NCBI GenBank assembly: GCA_002753565.1
Contig: PEAM01000025.1
Span: forward strand, 1 to 61,815
DNA length: 61,815 nt
Reading direction: 5' to 3'
Source of the DNA: Magnetococcales bacterium
GTDB taxonomy: Bacteria; Pseudomonadota; Magnetococcia; Magnetococcales; JADFYX01
Shown here: in pieces, positions 4,090-29,504 of the stretch
How the letters are laid out: every line of letters starts with the position of its first letter
Position numbering within the stretch: position 1 is the stretch's first letter
Made by a program: the position numbers and the translations under genes
Notes under the pieces: generated by a model
Database searches by the model: none
What the model saw: the letters and a program-made list of their open reading frames with translations, nothing else
Told to the model about the DNA's origin: nothing

Positions 4090-4689
4090 TCAGACCACCT
4101 GAATGGTACGTTTGCCACCATCCGCCAGAATAGCCAGCACCCGCTGACGCCAAGCGGTTGAAAATTGTTCTTTTACCTGGGGATCCTTGCTGCCGTAAAG
4201 GATCTGGCGCATGGCCTCGCCCATATCCCCAGCCGCTGGAATGGCTGCAGGAGAGTAGGTCAATGTCACCGACGCCCCCGTATCCCGACGGGTGAAGGTG
4301 ACCAGATCGGCCCCTTTCACCTTATATTGAAGCAGATCTTTACGGACATGCTGCCCACCCAAACCCTGAAAGCCCTGTCTGGCTGCCGCCCCCGTCAACA
4401 GGGTATAGACCTGACTCATGGGTCCGTTCACCCCCTCCTCCTCACCACCCGCCAACGCCACACCAATCTCTCCTCGGGTAGGGGTCTGGTTGGGGTAGAG
4501 GTGGTCCAAGGCCACTTTAACCAACAAAAAAGCCCCCGCCACCGTTGGACAGGCATGGCCAGAGAGCTTGACAGCATCGTCAAAGGTGTAGGTGAAATGG
4601 CCATCACCGGCGCCGAGCAGATCGGCTAGAGGATCATAGAGGGTGATGGCGGGCTCTTGGGGAAAAAAAGTTTGCGGTTGACTATGCAC
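4090..4689 (-). CDS. FmdE-domain-like protein of unknown function
   Basis: 199 residues with a GHACPTVAGAF motif near residue 46. It resembles the Gly-His-x-Cys-Pro signature of the FmdE family, named for a gene in the molybdenum formylmethanofuran dehydrogenase operon but widespread in bacteria without that enzyme. A GGEEEGVNGP stretch follows. I see no signal peptide, membrane segment or further cysteine cluster. The start is GTG (4687-4689) with GAGG about 10 bases upstream. It lies 27 bases behind a MerR-type regulator gene on the same strand, so the two are probably co-transcribed and the regulator may control it. A role in metal or C1 chemistry would be a guess. The FmdE match is from motif recognition only. 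Confidence 0.5.
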   Translation of the reverse strand: MHSQPQTFFPQEPAITLYDPLADLLGAGDGHFTYTFDDAVKLSGHACPTVAGAFLLVKVALDHLYPNQTPTRGEIGVALAGGEEEGVNGPMSQVYTLLTGAAARQGFQGLGGQHVRKDLLQYKVKGADLVTFTRRDTGASVTLTYSPAAIPAAGDMGEAMRQILYGSKDPQVKEQFSTAWRQRVLAILADGGKRTIQVV

Positions 4690-18205: not shown

Positions 18206-18464
18206 GAACCGGTTCTCCCTCTATGAAGAGTGTTCTACCTTGCCACTATTGTTGACAAAGAGTTAAACAGTATCCGTGACATCAACACAACCCTGACGAC
18301 GATCCCCAAATAAAGGATATGGATTTTTTTCCTGTCAAAAGAGAGATCATAGCCGCAATTACGCCTTTCTTTCAACCGACAAAGCCTTTATAGTTGATAA
18401 TTTCCAGGTGATGTTAACCTGTATTCAATCGGTCGGGGCTACAAATCGAGGAAAGTATAGCTTT
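18206..18464. other. Divergent promoter region between rnfH-like and parA-like genes
   Basis: 259 bases separating two divergently transcribed genes, so at least two promoters must lie here. A TTGACA hexamer is present at about 18253 on the plus strand, but no well-spaced -10 box follows it. A TATAGTTGATAATTT stretch near 18390 is a possible -10 for the parA-like gene. Confidence 0.35.
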
Positions 18465-19235
18465 ATGAAAATTTATTCCGTCTACAACATTAAGGGCGGT
18501 GTCGGTAAAACCACCACCTCCGTCAATCTGGCCTATCTGTCGGCCTCCGCTGGGGCTCGCTCCATGATCTGGGATCTGGACCCTCAGGGTGGCACCAGCT
18601 ATTACCTCTGCGTCAAACCCAAAGTCAAGGGGGGAGCCAAAGGGCTGATCCGCAAAAAACCGGCCTTCGACGATCTCCTAAAGATGACCGGCTACCCCAA
18701 TCTGGACCTGCTTCCGGCGGATATCTCCTACCGGAACATGGATCAATTCCTGGAAAGAGAGGATAAGCCTACCCACGGTCTTCATCGTATTTTGCGCCCT
18801 CTGCGTCATCAATACGATAATATTTTCCTCGACTGCCCTCCTGGACTGACAACCATCACTGAAAATGTGTTCCGGGTTACCGACGTTCTGTTGGTGCCGC
18901 TGATTCCCACACCACTCTCTTTACGGGCCTATAATCGTCTGGTGCAGTTTTTAGTCAAGCGCCGGACAAAAAAATTACAGGTCATACCCTTTTTCAACAT
19001 GGTCAACACCACCAAACCCATCCACCGGATTGTGACCAAAAACGTCCACGCCAAACACCCCATCTTTTTGCGTAACACCATTCCCGAGTCGACCATCATC
19101 GAGGCCATGGGTATCAAACGCTCCCCCATCTTTACCTATGCCAGAGAGTCAGATGAGGCCGATAGTTTCCGAGGTCTCTGGAAAGAGATCCAGCAAAGAG
19201 AAAACAGCAAAAAAAGAAAGAAAAAAACCGATTAG
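18465..19235 (+). CDS. ParA/MinD-family ATPase
   Basis: Deviant Walker A ATPase. NIKGGVGKTTTSVNLA lies near the N-terminus, the switch I region is WDLDPQGGTS, and the Walker B-like segment FLDCPPGLTTIT is typical of ParA-type partitioning or positioning proteins. The start is the ATG 18465-18467 with GAGGAAAG about 9 bases upstream, giving 256 residues; an upstream in-frame ATG at 18408 has no support. No parB gene, parS site or plasmid gene follows, so it is an orphan ParA. It may position a protein complex rather than segregate DNA (inference). The C-terminus is strongly basic (SKKRKKKTD). It is followed by a terminator. Confidence 0.88.
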   Translation: MKIYSVYNIKGGVGKTTTSVNLAYLSASAGARSMIWDLDPQGGTSYYLCVKPKVKGGAKGLIRKKPAFDDLLKMTGYPNLDLLPADISYRNMDQFLEREDKPTHGLHRILRPLRHQYDNIFLDCPPGLTTITENVFRVTDVLLVPLIPTPLSLRAYNRLVQFLVKRRTKKLQVIPFFNMVNTTKPIHRIVTKNVHAKHPIFLRNTIPESTIIEAMGIKRSPIFTYARESDEADSFRGLWKEIQQRENSKKRKKKTD

Positions 19236-23756: not shown

Positions 23757-24611
23757 CTACGCCTCCTCACCACCGGCAAAACGGTAGAGCAGTTGAATCT
23801 CCTGATCCCAGATGGTGCTGTCAATAGTCTCTAATACAAGAGGAATTTCATCGAAGGTGGGATCGTTCATGATAAATCGAAAGGGGTCCAAACCCAGTTT
23901 TCCCTCTCCCAGACTGTGATGTCGATCCACCCGACTGCCAAGGTCTGGTTTGGAGTCGTTGAGATGCATTCCGCGCAAATAGTCAAAACCAACAACCCTA
24001 CCAAACAACTCCATGGTCTGCTGATAGCTCTCTGGAGTTCGAAGGTCATAACCGGAAGTGAAGGTATGGCAGGTGTCCAAACAGACGCCTATACGGCTTT
24101 TATCTTCCACTTGATCGATAATCTGGGCAATCTGCTCAAAGGTATGGCCCAGATTAGAGCCTTGACCGGCGGTGTTCTCGATCACAGCCGTCACCCCCTG
24201 GCTCTGATCCAAAGCCCGGTTGAGGGACTCAGAGATGAGAGAGAGGCACGCTTCAACAGAAATTTTTCTGAGGTGGCTACCAGGATGAAAGTTTAAACAG
24301 GTCAGCCCCAACAACCGACAGCGCTCCAACTCATCAATAAAGGCCTCCAGAGATTGTTGGCGTTTTTCAGGGTCTGGGTTTCCCAAGTTGATCAGATAGC
24401 CATCATGAGGCAGCACATCTTGAGGGCGAAAACCTCCCTCTTCCAGATTATTCTTAAAGACATCTATCTGTTTTGTTTCCAAGGGTTTGGATTGCCACTG
24501 GCGTTGATTCTTGGTAAACATGGCAAAAGCTTTAGCTCCGATTGCAGCCGCATTCAGAGGGGCGTTCTCCACACCACCCGCAATCGAGACATGGGCACCA
24601 ACACGTTTCAT
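23757..24611 (-). CDS. nfo: Endonuclease IV (AP endonuclease)
   Basis: Cuts DNA 5' of abasic sites in base excision repair, using three zinc ions. 284 residues, a TIM barrel. Metal-ligand motifs are [41 protein letters not shown] and [11 protein letters not shown], all intact. The opening [18 protein letters not shown] is the standard family N-terminus. The gene is transcribed toward the FetB-like gene and is not obviously part of an operon. Confidence 0.97.
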
Positions 24612-24653: not shown

Positions 24654-24696
24654 CCGTAATGCCTGGGAGGCATTACACCCCCCAAAATCGCTCATT
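24654..24696. repeat. REP-like palindrome, copy 2
   Basis: TAATGCC (24657-24663) and GGCATTA (24669-24675) form a 7-bp stem, followed by CACCCCCCAAAATCG. The design matches the elements at 19650 and 37155: palindrome, then an ACCCC run, then AAA. The rest of 24612-24805 holds no gene that I can see. Confidence 0.4.
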
Positions 24697-24805
24697 TATT
24701 AAACAGTAAACCTATGGAAACGGCTGTTGCCCTCACCCACCGGAAAGATAGCCACCCCTGCTTTCCAGTCATGGTAGGTTTTTGAGGGTGGGTGTGGGTA
24801 TCTCT

Positions 24806-25159
24806 CTATTTTTTACCCTTTTTTCCCCCTTTTTGTTTGGGGGCCTTTTTACGTTTGTTCTGCTCTTTTTTCTTCTCTTTCTTCTGCTTTTTCAACCGCT
24901 TGACTTTAGCCTCTTTTTCCTGCTCTTTTTTCTTCATACTCTGCTCTTTTTTCTTCTTGACTGAGCTGACGGCAGCACTGATTTTTTTCTCAGAAAGCAG
25001 GTTGTCCACCATCTCAACAACCAGTCCATCTTCAAGAAAATCGGCTTTCTCCTTGCGACCTTTTTTGGGGGATACCAGATCGCCCTTTAACAAATCACTC
25101 TCCATATCGGATTCGAACCTGACGGGCTTCAGCAGTTTCTTTTGTTTCATTTTACTCAT
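24806..25159 (-). CDS. Lysine-rich low-complexity protein of unknown function
   Basis: 117 residues from the ATG at 25157-25159. The first 65 residues are mixed (KPVRFESDMESDLLKGDLVSP, FLEDGLVVEMVDNLLSEKK). The last 50 are almost entirely Lys, Glu, Gln and Arg (KKKEQEKEAKVKRLKKQKK) and end in KGGKKGKK. No family is recognised and there is no signal peptide or membrane segment. The basic tail could bind nucleic acid or an acidic surface (inference). It is the last of three small minus-strand genes of odd composition. Confidence 0.5.
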   Translation of the reverse strand: MSKMKQKKLLKPVRFESDMESDLLKGDLVSPKKGRKEKADFLEDGLVVEMVDNLLSEKKISAAVSSVKKKKEQSMKKKEQEKEAKVKRLKKQKKEKKKEQNKRKKAPKQKGGKKGKK

Positions 25160-25264
25160 AGTATTGGTCTCGATTTTAAGGCTAAAAAATAAACATCTAA
25201 TCACTTCCAGATAATCCTGGCTAAGATCTCTCCCACCTCTACCACAGCATTGCTGTAAAGCAGG

Positions 25265-25537
25265 CTACCCTTCAGGTCCCGCCAGCCGCTGGTGATTGGG
25301 TGGTCCCTCCAGTAAATCTCTCTTTTTTGGTCCCCCCAACTGTTGGCGCCCTTCTGGCCCCTCTACCAACACTTTTTCTCCCGGCCCCTTCAGCCGATCT
25401 TTCTCCTCTGGCCCTTCTACCAATATTCTCTTTCCTGGTCCATCCAGTTGAATCCGGCTTAGCGGGCCTTCTACCAACTTTTTTTCTGTTGGCCCCTCTA
25501 ATAAGTCCCGCTGTTTTGAACCTTCTAGCTCTCTCAT
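25265..25537 (-). CDS. Nonapeptide-repeat protein, unknown function
   Basis: 90 residues made of about nine 9-residue repeats with the invariant core Gly-Pro, for example LVEGPLSRI, QLDGPGKRI, LVEGPEEKD, RLKGPGEKV. Two repeat types alternate, L(V/L)EGP then (Q/R)LxGP, so the true period is 18 residues (54 bases). A Lys or Arg usually stands three places after the Gly-Pro. There is no cysteine, no aromatic residue, no signal peptide and no membrane segment. AGAGG lies 5 bases before the ATG. I know of no family with this repeat. Regular turns every nine residues suggest a solenoid or extended fibre (inference). Confidence 0.55.
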   Translation of the reverse strand: MRELEGSKQRDLLEGPTEKKLVEGPLSRIQLDGPGKRILVEGPEEKDRLKGPGEKVLVEGPEGRQQLGGPKKRDLLEGPPNHQRLAGPEG

Positions 25538-25594
25538 GGCAACCTCTTCACACCGTTATGGTTTGAAAAACCAACAGTCCAACGTCATTCACCT

Positions 25595-25948
25595 TTAAGC
25601 TGCTGATCGAATAAATAGAGAAATAATCAACAAGATCGAGAAGATAACAATACTCACCACAGTGCCTGAAGTGGAATCTTTTTTGACCACCTCAACCCGT
25701 TTTTTCAGATGAGATACCGCCTCAGCCGATTCATGACTGGCCATGGAAACTTTTTGCACGGTATTTTGTAGCTTTAACAGCTCTTTTTGACTCTCTACCA
25801 TGGCGGCCTTCTCTTTTTCCAAGGCACCGGGAATGGCATACAGAGCGGTTTTCAAACTTTGCAACTCCGCCTCCAGAGCCGCCACCCGCACCTCCAGGCC
25901 GTTCCCCGAATTTTCCATACCCTCTCCATTCTGCTGTTTTTCAGTCAT
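25595..25948 (-). CDS. Coiled-coil protein with C-terminal membrane anchor
   Basis: 117 residues from the ATG at 25946-25948. Residues 15-90 have heptad-like leucine and charge spacing (VRVAALEAELQSLKTAL, SQKELLKLQNTVQKV, AVSHLKKRVEVVKK), a probable coiled coil. The last 20 residues are a single hydrophobic segment (VVSIVIFSILLIISLFI) ending in RSAA, so the protein is tail-anchored with its body in the cytoplasm. No family is recognised. It is upstream of the nonapeptide-repeat gene on the same strand, 57 bases away. Confidence 0.6.
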   Translation of the reverse strand: MTEKQQNGEGMENSGNGLEVRVAALEAELQSLKTALYAIPGALEKEKAAMVESQKELLKLQNTVQKVSMASHESAEAVSHLKKRVEVVKKDSTSGTVVSIVIFSILLIISLFIRSAA

Positions 25949-26196: not shown

Positions 26197-28590
26197 TCAA
26201 TGCTCTGGATCACTCTCTCTCATCGGAAAGATGTTCGTATTATCCTGATCTTTTTCGCTGCTGGTGGGACTGCAACGCTCATGAGACAAGGGAGCCGGAC
26301 TCAAAAAACGGCTCAAAACCTCTAAAAAGCTTTTTTTGTTGATGGGTTTACTCAAATGTCCATCACAGCCAACTCCGTAGGTCTGCTCTACATCCCCAGG
26401 CAGCGCGTTGGCGGTTAGTGCCAGTATTCGGGTTTTGGGGCGTTGTTGCGACCTCTCCCACGCTCGGATGGCTCGTGTCGCAGAGTAGCCATCCATCACC
26501 GGCATATGAATATCCATCAAGACCAGATCAAACGACCCACTTTTAAAGCACTCTATCGCCTCTTGACCATTTTCCGCCACGGTGTAGCGAAGGTTGTACC
26601 CTTTTAAAAAAGCCTGGATAAGAAAGAGGTTATCTTCGGAATCCTCCACAACAAGCAGATGCTTATTGGCAAAAAGGGCCGAATTATCTTCTTGAGTCGG
26701 GTTCAAGGCAGGGGGCTTTTTGGGTACAGCCTCAGCGGTGGCCTGGGGTAATCGAATATCGAAAATAAATCGACTCCCCTCCCCTTCCCTGCTCTCCAAC
26801 CAGATTTTTCCCTGCATCAACTCAACAAATTCTCGACACAAGCTCAAACCCAGACCAGATCCGCCAAATTTTCGTGTCAGCGTGCTATCGGCCTGAATAA
26901 ACTTCTCGAAAATACTCTCAACCTTCTCCAAGGGGACACCAATACCCGAGTCTGAAACCATAATGCGTACACTCTGATCATCCTTCTCATCCGGAGAGGC
27001 TGACAGGGCCACTTCGATCTCTCCGTCAAAGGTGAATTTAACCGCATTACTGAGCAAATTCACCAAAATCTGTCGTAGACGGGTGGGATCTCCCATCCGC
27101 CACAACACCATCCCCTCTTCTATTGTTCTAGAGAGAGTAATCTCTTTTTCGTTAACCATGACCTGAAAGGTACTCAACACTTCATCCGTCAATTCGCTCA
27201 AATTGAACGCCACCGACTCCAGTTGAATCTGTCCCGATTCGACACGGGAAACATCCAGGATATCATTAATCAAAACCAACAACCCCTCACCATTGCGCTT
27301 TAATACCCGGATATACGCCTGCCGCTGCTCTGGAGAGGTATCGCTATTACCCAGAAGCTCTGTCATACCAAGAATGGCATTCATGGGGGTGCGGATTTCG
27401 TGGCTCATGGAGGCAAGAAAATTACTTTTTGATTGATTGGCCTGTTCGGCCTCTTTTTTGGCCATACGGTGGGCCTGCTCCAGTCGGGTTCGCTCTTCCA
27501 CCTCCCGTTGCAACTCCCGGTTGCCCTCCTCCAGATCGTGAGCCATTTTATTAAACGAGTTGATCACTCCACCCACCTCATCGTTGGAGTGAATGGCCAC
27601 GCGGGTGGACATTTTCCCGGCAGAGAGGGCTTTGGCAGCCTCCTCCAGTTGGGTCAAGGGTGTGGTAATGGTGTGGGCCAACCACCAGGAGATGAAGGTG
27701 CCGACCAGAGAGATCCCCAAAAAGAAGAGAAAATAGAGCTGACCTATCTGCCGGGCCGGAAGCAGCGACTCTTGATGGGGAAGTACCACCACAACCGACC
27801 AGGGATTGTCCGCCACCGGCGCCACGGCAACCAGAGCGGATAGCCCGGTTATCTCCGCACTGCCAAACCCCTCCTCTCGATTAAGAATCTTTTGAAAAAT
27901 GGGTTCTGACCTCTTCCAGGTGGTCTGGTAGGGCTGAAACAGTCTGGAGCGGTCCTGATGGTAGAGAATCCGCCCCTTATCATCCACCAGCATGGAGAAG
28001 CCGCTCTCACCGGGATTGGCTGAGACAAAACCGGAAAAAAGCTCCAATAACGGCATCTCACCCAGAATAGCCCCGCCAAAATCATCAAAATAGGTGCGAA
28101 CCACATACAGCATGCGCAAAATGGGAAACCCCTCCTTCCCCTCCAAAACGGGAAAAAAAAGCACCTGGTTGGGGTTGTCTTTTGCTTTGGGAAACTGGGG
28201 TAGATCGGTTAAGGAGGCCAGGGGGTTGCCATCCACCAGACTACCCGAGTCCGATTGAAACTCGACCTCTCCATTCTGGTTGGCATAGAGCAAAAAAGGG
28301 AAGGTGGGCTGAAACCGTTGAAAATGGAAGCGGAGAATATCCTCTTTAAACTCAGAAATATAGACATCAATCTCCCGCGCTGTTGCCATCTCCACAAACT
28401 GTCGGCGCAGACTGTTCAGCCGGTCATGGATGGTCCGAGCCTGGGTCATGGCCAGCAGACTCATCTCTTTCTGTTGAACCTGGCTTATTGTGTTGGAGAG
28501 GGTGACATAGCCCACAACAGCCATCGCCGCCGATACCAGCGCGACCAACCCCACCAGTGCCAACCCAATTTTTTTTCTAATGGTCAACAT
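26197..28590 (-). CDS. Hybrid sensor histidine kinase (Cache-HAMP-HisKA-HATPase-REC)
   Basis: 797 residues from the ATG at 28588-28590, which has GAGGGGG 7 bases upstream. It has an N-terminal membrane segment (about 8-30), a periplasmic Cache-like region (about 35-280) and a second membrane segment (285-305). A HAMP domain (about 305-360) and a short coiled coil follow. The dimerisation/phosphoacceptor box is ASMSHEIRTPMNAILG, with His at about 397. The ATPase boxes NLLSNAVKF, DSGIGV and GGSGLGLSL precede a C-terminal receiver domain (VVEDSEDN, phospho-Asp at about 693 in LMDIHMPVMDG). No output protein is adjacent, so phosphorelay to a distant Hpt or regulator is likely. The phosphate-binding-like gene just upstream may supply its ligand signal. 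Confidence 0.93.
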   Translation of the reverse strand: MLTIRKKIGLALVGLVALVSAAMAVVGYVTLSNTISQVQQKEMSLLAMTQARTIHDRLNSLRRQFVEMATAREIDVYISEFKEDILRFHFQRFQPTFPFLLYANQNGEVEFQSDSGSLVDGNPLASLTDLPQFPKAKDNPNQVLFFPVLEGKEGFPILRMLYVVRTYFDDFGGAILGEMPLLELFSGFVSANPGESGFSMLVDDKGRILYHQDRSRLFQPYQTTWKRSEPIFQKILNREEGFGSAEITGLSALVAVAPVADNPWSVVVVLPHQESLLPARQIGQLYFLFFLGISLVGTFISWWLAHTITTPLTQLEEAAKALSAGKMSTRVAIHSNDEVGGVINSFNKMAHDLEEGNRELQREVEERTRLEQAHRMAKKEAEQANQSKSNFLASMSHEIRTPMNAILGMTELLGNSDTSPEQRQAYIRVLKRNGEGLLVLINDILDVSRVESGQIQLESVAFNLSELTDEVLSTFQVMVNEKEITLSRTIEEGMVLWRMGDPTRLRQILVNLLSNAVKFTFDGEIEVALSASPDEKDDQSVRIMVSDSGIGVPLEKVESIFEKFIQADSTLTRKFGGSGLGLSLCREFVELMQGKIWLESREGEGSRFIFDIRLPQATAEAVPKKPPALNPTQEDNSALFANKHLLVVEDSEDNLFLIQAFLKGYNLRYTVAENGQEAIECFKSGSFDLVLMDIHMPVMDGYSATRAIRAWERSQQRPKTRILALTANALPGDVEQTYGVGCDGHLSKPINKKSFLEVLSRFLSPAPLSHERCSPTSSEKDQDNTNIFPMRESDPEH

Positions 28591-28604
28591 GATAGCACCC
28601 CCTC

Positions 28605-29504
28605 TCATAACCCCGGCGGCAAACCGCCAGAGACCGGATAGATGCCGATCAGATTCATGAAATTGCGGATTTTTGGCTCAAAAAGATAGCGCATGAATTT
28701 TTGCTCCCAGCCCGTCACCGGCTTTTTGGCCACCAACTCCAAAAAAAGAAAGTGGGGATACTCACCGCTGGTAACCGATGCCTCACCCGGCTGAACACCG
28801 TCGATGGATAAAATTTTCAACCCCGATCCAAACGCAACCGAAAGGGGCAGAAAACCGATGGTATAAGGGTGGTTGGCAATGGCTTTGGCCGCACGAGGGG
28901 TAGAGAAAAAGATCTTTCCCGCCCGCCAATCCACCTCCCTTTTGATGAGAGAGTTTTCCAACACCGTTCGGGAGGCGTCACCACGTTCCCGGTTGACGAC
29001 ATAGATTTTATGGTCACGCCCCCCCACTTGCGCCCAGTTGTTCACCGCCCCTGAATAGATATCGAGAATTTGCCTTCTGGTCAAACTCTCGATACCTGTC
29101 ACCGAAGGGTGTACCGCAAAAACAATGGGGGAGATGGCAAAGGGGATGGAGAGCAAGCCGGCCTGCTCCCGCTGTTTCATGGGGCGGGCAATGCGGGCCA
29201 ACTGAGCCAACCCCTTCTGCAGGGCCAGAATACCGCCACCAGAGCCGATACTATCCGGCACATCCACCAGGATTCCCGAGGAGAGATGATCTTGCTCAAA
29301 CCGTCTGGCTACATGTCTAAGAAGGGCTTGGCTATCCCCGGTACCCGCTATCACCAGCACCTGGCTCAGCGCATCGGCATTCAGTGTGGCACCACCAGCC
29401 CACCGGTGAGGGAGTCCCACCACGAGGAGAATCATCATCAGAGCCACCCTACCGATCCGGTTCAATCGTCTCTCCCAATTCATCGTGTCGAATTCTGGCT
29501 TCAT
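28605..29504 (-). CDS. PstS-like periplasmic substrate-binding protein
   Basis: About 299 residues from the ATG at 29502-29504, or 292 from the next ATG at 29483. The start is not certain because the frame stays open far upstream over mobA. A signal-peptide-like segment (VALMMILLVVGLP) is followed by a PstS-type binding domain: LVIAGTGDSQALL, DVPDSIGSGGGILAL, PIVFAVHPSVTGIESLTRRQ, DIYSGAVNNWAQVGG and RERGDASRTVLEN. No pst transporter genes are near. The stop codon overlaps an ATG upstream of the kinase start, and only 14 bases separate it from the preferred kinase start. A role in signal sensing rather than transport is therefore likely (inference). Confidence 0.85.
   Translation of the reverse strand: MKPEFDTMNWERRLNRIGRVALMMILLVVGLPHRWAGGATLNADALSQVLVIAGTGDSQALLRHVARRFEQDHLSSGILVDVPDSIGSGGGILALQKGLAQLARIARPMKQREQAGLLSIPFAISPIVFAVHPSVTGIESLTRRQILDIYSGAVNNWAQVGGRDHKIYVVNRERGDASRTVLENSLIKREVDWRAGKIFFSTPRAAKAIANHPYTIGFLPLSVAFGSGLKILSIDGVQPGEASVTSGEYPHFLFLELVAKKPVTGWEQKFMRYLFEPKIRNFMNLIGIYPVSGGLPPGL

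Follow-up and report, generated by a model that had tools for sequence, protein, structure and literature searches.

Do three adjacent small genes of unusual design, each encoding a protein of different physical character, belong to one system? The question arises from a contig of a Magnetococcales bacterium, of which a stretch of 61,815 nucleotides (the window) was analysed, and for which the original prediction had joined a tail-anchored coiled coil, a Gly-Pro nonapeptide repeat and a protein with a lysine-rich tail into a single scaffold. All three open reading frames were found, on the minus strand and in the order CC (coiled coil), REP (repeat) and LYS (lysine-rich), with gaps of 57 nt between CC and REP and 105 nt between REP and LYS; the trio is flanked by a hybrid histidine kinase gene upstream and an endonuclease IV gene downstream (Table 1). 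A conserved two-gene module with a connection to CheW, with an orphan repeat gene lying between the two, is a better reading of this locus than a system of three parts.

Table 1. Features of the CC–REP–LYS locus, with positions in the window
Feature	Position	Strand	Basis
Hybrid histidine kinase, upstream neighbour	26197..28608	-	Pfam: dCache, HAMP, HisKA, HATPase, receiver
CC, 117 aa, C-terminally anchored coiled coil	25595..25948	-	Profile family, alignment, heptad matches
Transmembrane segment of CC, residues 95–113	25610..25666	-	Hydropathy, conservation in the alignment
Shine-Dalgarno-like GAAGAGG, 5 nt ahead of the REP ATG	25543..25549	-	Sequence
REP, 90 aa, ten 9-residue units forming five 18-residue pairs	25265..25537	-	Sequence; no relative found in the genomes searched
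LYS, 117 aa, short helical motif and polybasic C-terminal tail	24806..25159	-	Orthologues directly after CC
LYS motif region ADFLEDGLVVEMVDNLLSEKKISAAVSS	24962..25045	-	Counterpart of the C-terminal motif in CC-coupled CheW proteins
Polybasic tail of LYS	24809..24961	-	Lys content; also in LYS-like proteins of the order
Terminator-like hairpin between LYS and endonuclease IV	24655..24677	-	10 pairs, then a T run
Endonuclease IV (nfo), conserved downstream neighbour	23757..24611	-	Pfam PF01261

CC is the founding member of a family restricted to the order Magnetococcales. Profile searches found the family in 38 of 48 genomes of the order (E ≤ 1.3e-27), and the ten genomes lacking it are mostly incomplete, with G011 and G041 more than 90% complete. 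Nothing comparable was detected in ~350 other genomes of the phylum, where the best match (3e-6) was a generic coiled coil, and comparison with curated families likewise returned only generic coiled-coil matches, e.g. tropomyosin heptads. The family alignment comprises a coiled coil whose sequence varies, a basic membrane-adjacent stretch and a transmembrane segment, with Phe103 and Arg114 invariant, and it agrees with the C-terminal membrane anchor that had been predicted. CC of the window has each of these elements: the coiled coil, a basic juxtamembrane motif, KRVEVVKKD, a C-terminal transmembrane segment that is the best 19-residue hydropathy stretch of the protein (mean 2.8) and has four residues after it, and the Phe and Arg near the end.

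REP does have the Gly-Pro nonapeptide repeat described for it, being exactly ten units of nine residues with none left over. At lag 9, 28 of 81 positions are identical, a figure that none of 10,000 shuffles reached. The agreement at lag 18 is even stronger (32 of 72), which makes the 18-residue pair the true unit, with the consensus x-x-L-V-E-G-P-x-x / x-x-[QR]-L-x-G-P-x-x. When one-base codon differences between units were counted, the sense frame gave 89 synonymous versus 59 non-synonymous changes and four of the five other frames gave 11–28 versus 97–122; one antisense frame has a weaker excess of the same kind (73 versus 60), and the test thus speaks for the sense frame of REP, albeit not uniquely. 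The codon differences favour the view that REP is under selection at the protein level. A periodicity far above chance, together with sense-frame changes that are mainly synonymous, indicates that REP is very probably a translated gene; its ribosome-binding site is likewise a good one.

REP is also taxonomically isolated. Protein and repeat-profile searches found no relative in the other 47 genomes of the order or in ~350 further genomes of the phylum (one genome was sampled per species, and one of the REP genome scans covered close relatives only), and searches of GTDB genomes, phages, plasmids, viral contigs and the PDB returned only weak RTX-like periodicity, none of it convincing. In all three other members of the genus that have the CC–LYS pair, the two genes are separated by 75–83 bp free of REP, and this narrow gap points to REP as an insertion specific to the species, as far as sampled. 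Within the same sampling, REP appears to be a recent species-level gain, translated, and not essential to the CC–LYS module. Conservation of the trio thus held in part: CC and LYS stand together and in the same order in four of four genus genomes with CC, and REP is absent from the others. The proposal that CC anchors the complex, REP acts as a spacer and LYS binds DNA, lipid or polyphosphate would account for the shared strand, the short gaps, the apparently good translation of REP and the signs of protein-level selection, but with REP missing from all other genomes searched (0/47 and 0/~350) and not lying between CC and LYS in the genus relatives, the three do not form a conserved system, and we consider such a scaffold very unlikely.

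Considering where such a repeat might come from, the RTX proteins, with their nonapeptide motif GGXGXDXUX (PMC4303809), are the obvious comparison, and REP could be read as a degenerate RTX β-roll that no longer has its calcium ligands and may stem from an RTX protein in its own genome. The nine-residue period, the 18-residue pairs, and a glycine at position 1 and hydrophobic residue at position 8 are all shared, and RTX proteins give the best of the weak REP matches, both within the genus and among plasmids. In REP, however, Gly-Pro replaces Gly-Gly, the second and fourth glycines are absent and the Asp is only partly kept, so that the unit consensus departs from GGXGXDXUX and the calcium-binding consensus is missing; Pfam RTX gave no match at E ≤ 1, and the single-sequence AlphaFold2 model of REP has low confidence (pLDDT 53). 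An RTX ancestry is, on balance, improbable. A weak REP match within the same genome (G000:C1, ~4498–4638, minus strand) falls in an open frame given as 26,117 aa, which would be a gene of extreme length.

The third gene, LYS, encodes a protein with 38 Lys among its 117 residues and a pI of 10.2, so the lysine-rich tail is real. Its orthologues adjoin CC within the genus, and a syntenic LYS-like family occurs in groups g7, g17 and f12; these proteins share a short ‘hhDxLLPxxxxE’ helix followed by a polybasic tail. AlphaFold2 predicts a helix over the motif of LYS and a long helix running into the tail, at low global confidence (pTM 0.30). CC and LYS can be taken as more than chance open reading frames, because both belong to conserved families. 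The 140-aa open frame antisense to LYS (24792–25214, plus strand) is an artefact which arises because Lys codons reverse-complement to Phe and Leu codons. In the LYS-like protein of G015 (L084, 8774–9316, minus strand) the tail consists of repeated EKKADK/EKKAGK units, which shows that the basic tail can expand by tandem repetition.

What else occupies the position after CC? The locus was read in the 38 genomes having CC, and a small LYS-like protein follows in 19 of them, the source genome of the window included. In another 15, the following gene encodes a protein with an N-terminal domain of the CheW coupling proteins (Pfam PF01584; E 1e-29 to 2e-32), a chemosensory link that goes beyond anything the original prediction had foreseen. 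The CheW gene abuts or overlaps CC directly in at least 13 of the 15 genomes: among the 13 junctions inspected there is a 4-nt overlap in five and a spacing of 0–5 nt in seven, and in the remaining one the overlap is longer when counted from the first start codon, probably a start-site artefact. The three genomes of f11 have a different small open reading frame after CC, unrelated by eye, and f10 has none. When the LYS and CheW states are placed on an endonuclease IV tree, on which several forks are weakly supported, they are clustered, with around three to four changes, and the CheW clade of g13 lies close to the LYS clades of g7 and of the genus studied here.

Neither LYS nor CC of the window has a Pfam match to the CheW domain, and LYS has only a far C-terminal motif in common with the CheW proteins. 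In g13 and f14 the CheW proteins finish with a LDVVDALTPDVRLEERL-like segment and a basic tail, corresponding to the motif VVVEMVDSLLPSKSLEETM of LYS and the basic tail behind it. In profile–profile alignment with hhalign, basic tails removed, LYS and the CheW tails scored 23.3 (P 4.8e-4, probability 32%); the highest score among 200 column shuffles was 16.4, and LYS subgroups whose orthology follows from their position give similar scores to one another. When a profile built from LYS proteins only was run against 3,892 open reading frames of the loci, the first non-LYS matches were the CheW proteins of G031 and G037 (E 0.0015), with the next match at 1.4. A combined LYS/CheW-tail profile, which was built from the same sequences, detected no further copy of the motif above noise in the order. 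The group g17 provides a case of both forms in one organism, G036, where LYS is encoded at the CC locus and a CheW protein whose tail is related is encoded elsewhere. This 716-aa protein (L128, 295–2445, minus strand) has a long Ala/Glu/Val-rich repeat linker ahead of its LYS-like tail, and the L128 locus also holds soluble MCP-like and CheW-receiver proteins.

A C-terminal helix motif and polybasic tail are therefore common to LYS and to CC-coupled CheW proteins, with moderate statistics and over a short motif. Since the shared motif is short (~30 columns), homology between the two is likely rather than proved. LYS may be a CheW-less form of the tail of the adaptor, a relationship with moderate support from these profiles. 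The motif is lacking from the CC-coupled CheW proteins of f2, f4 and f5, and from those of G022, G026 and G033 in g13, which indicates that it is not needed for the link to CC.

Another role for the motif suggests itself from its appearance, i.e. a docking peptide for phosphorylated CheY comparable to the FliM N-terminus or the CheZ C-terminus, as the segment FQSMIDALLP looks like the LSxxEIDALM of FliM from the same genomes. The LYS motif profiles nevertheless score the real FliM N-termini of these genomes at ~0 bits, and we regard this as extremely unlikely.

The neighbours of the locus allow a further reading, with LYS as a small histone-like or nucleoid protein tied to endonuclease IV, and so to DNA repair, with no chemosensory role. 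Endonuclease IV adjoins the CC locus in most genomes of the order, usually after it, and a polybasic tail would suit such a protein, although tails of this kind also fit lipid or RNA binding. Many families fill this slot with a CheW-domain protein, unconnected with base-excision repair, and in the window a terminator-like hairpin separates LYS from nfo; this hairpin is the longest stem in a region whose count of hairpin sites is not above chance, and a promoter scan at the locus gave nothing beyond chance level. A nucleoid role seems unlikely to us. On the other side of CC, the upstream histidine kinase is kept within the genus, in G001, G003 and G004.

The CheW context, this histidine kinase and the tight coupling of the genes suggest an accessory role in signalling for the CC module. 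We propose that CC and LYS form a Magnetococcales-specific two-gene accessory, located at the inner membrane, of chemosensory or two-component signalling, to which REP would be a recent and inessential addition, and we give this proposal an even chance of being right. In it, CC would form homo-oligomers through its coiled coil, with the C-terminal anchor in the inner membrane and the coil in the cytoplasm, and in many families of the order it would recruit the tightly coupled CheW adaptor to the membrane. That adaptor carries a long disordered linker and, in some cases, the C-terminal helix and polybasic tail. In g7, g17, f12 and the genus studied here, the CheW domain is missing and the helix and tail alone would remain as LYS, a small partner that presumably binds CC and whose tail may hold it to an acidic surface, either membrane lipid or the nucleoid; the pair would still serve chemosensory signalling. 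Set against this module are the low hhalign probability given above for so short a motif, the unrelated gene in f11 and the lack of any in f10, and the position of the main che operon of the genus (locus L130 in the genome studied here), which sits away from the CC locus.

A search of the open-access literature found no description of a CC–CheW locus in Magnetococcales. A more specific version of the proposal, in which CC and the CheW-tail protein are an undescribed membrane-tethered chemosensory accessory, confined to the magnetotactic-coccus lineage, in which loss or relocation of the CheW domain occurred several times and the anchor and tail were retained, and into which a newborn protein of 18-residue-pair repeats has been inserted in one species, is put forward tentatively, as rather more likely to be wrong than right.

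In its logic, the nearest known system would be ParP/ParC of Vibrio, which connects a CheW-like domain with a localisation partner in chemotaxis arrays (PMC5706961). Both combine a CheW-like domain, a long linker and a second part that ties, or here would tie, arrays to a cellular anchor, with the gene of the partner next door. The CheW-like AIF domain of ParP is C-terminal, however, and its gene lies in a chemotaxis operon with parC, encoding a separate polar determinant, immediately upstream, whereas the CC-coupled proteins have an N-terminal CheW domain and no such C-terminal AIF domain, their partner is a tail-anchored coiled coil, and the locus is beside nfo and outside a che operon; the locus of the window, moreover, has no CheW domain at all. 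If the proposal is true, magnetotactic cocci tether CheW-type adaptors to the membrane in a lineage-specific way, which could bear on the placing or tuning of chemosensory arrays in two-bundle swimmers, and the locus would be a clear case of signalling genes in which the adaptor domain comes and goes and the tail persists. REP for its part would be a clean example of a single-species repeat protein under coding selection.

Two other genes of the window may be mentioned. A ParA-like ATPase is encoded ~6 kb from the CC locus (18408–19235, plus strand), and an RnfH-family protein (Pfam PF03658; 17624–18205, minus strand) ends in a long tail of Ala/Lys repeats, AAIKAKVAAAKAKKAAA, which is a further polybasic extension in this genome.
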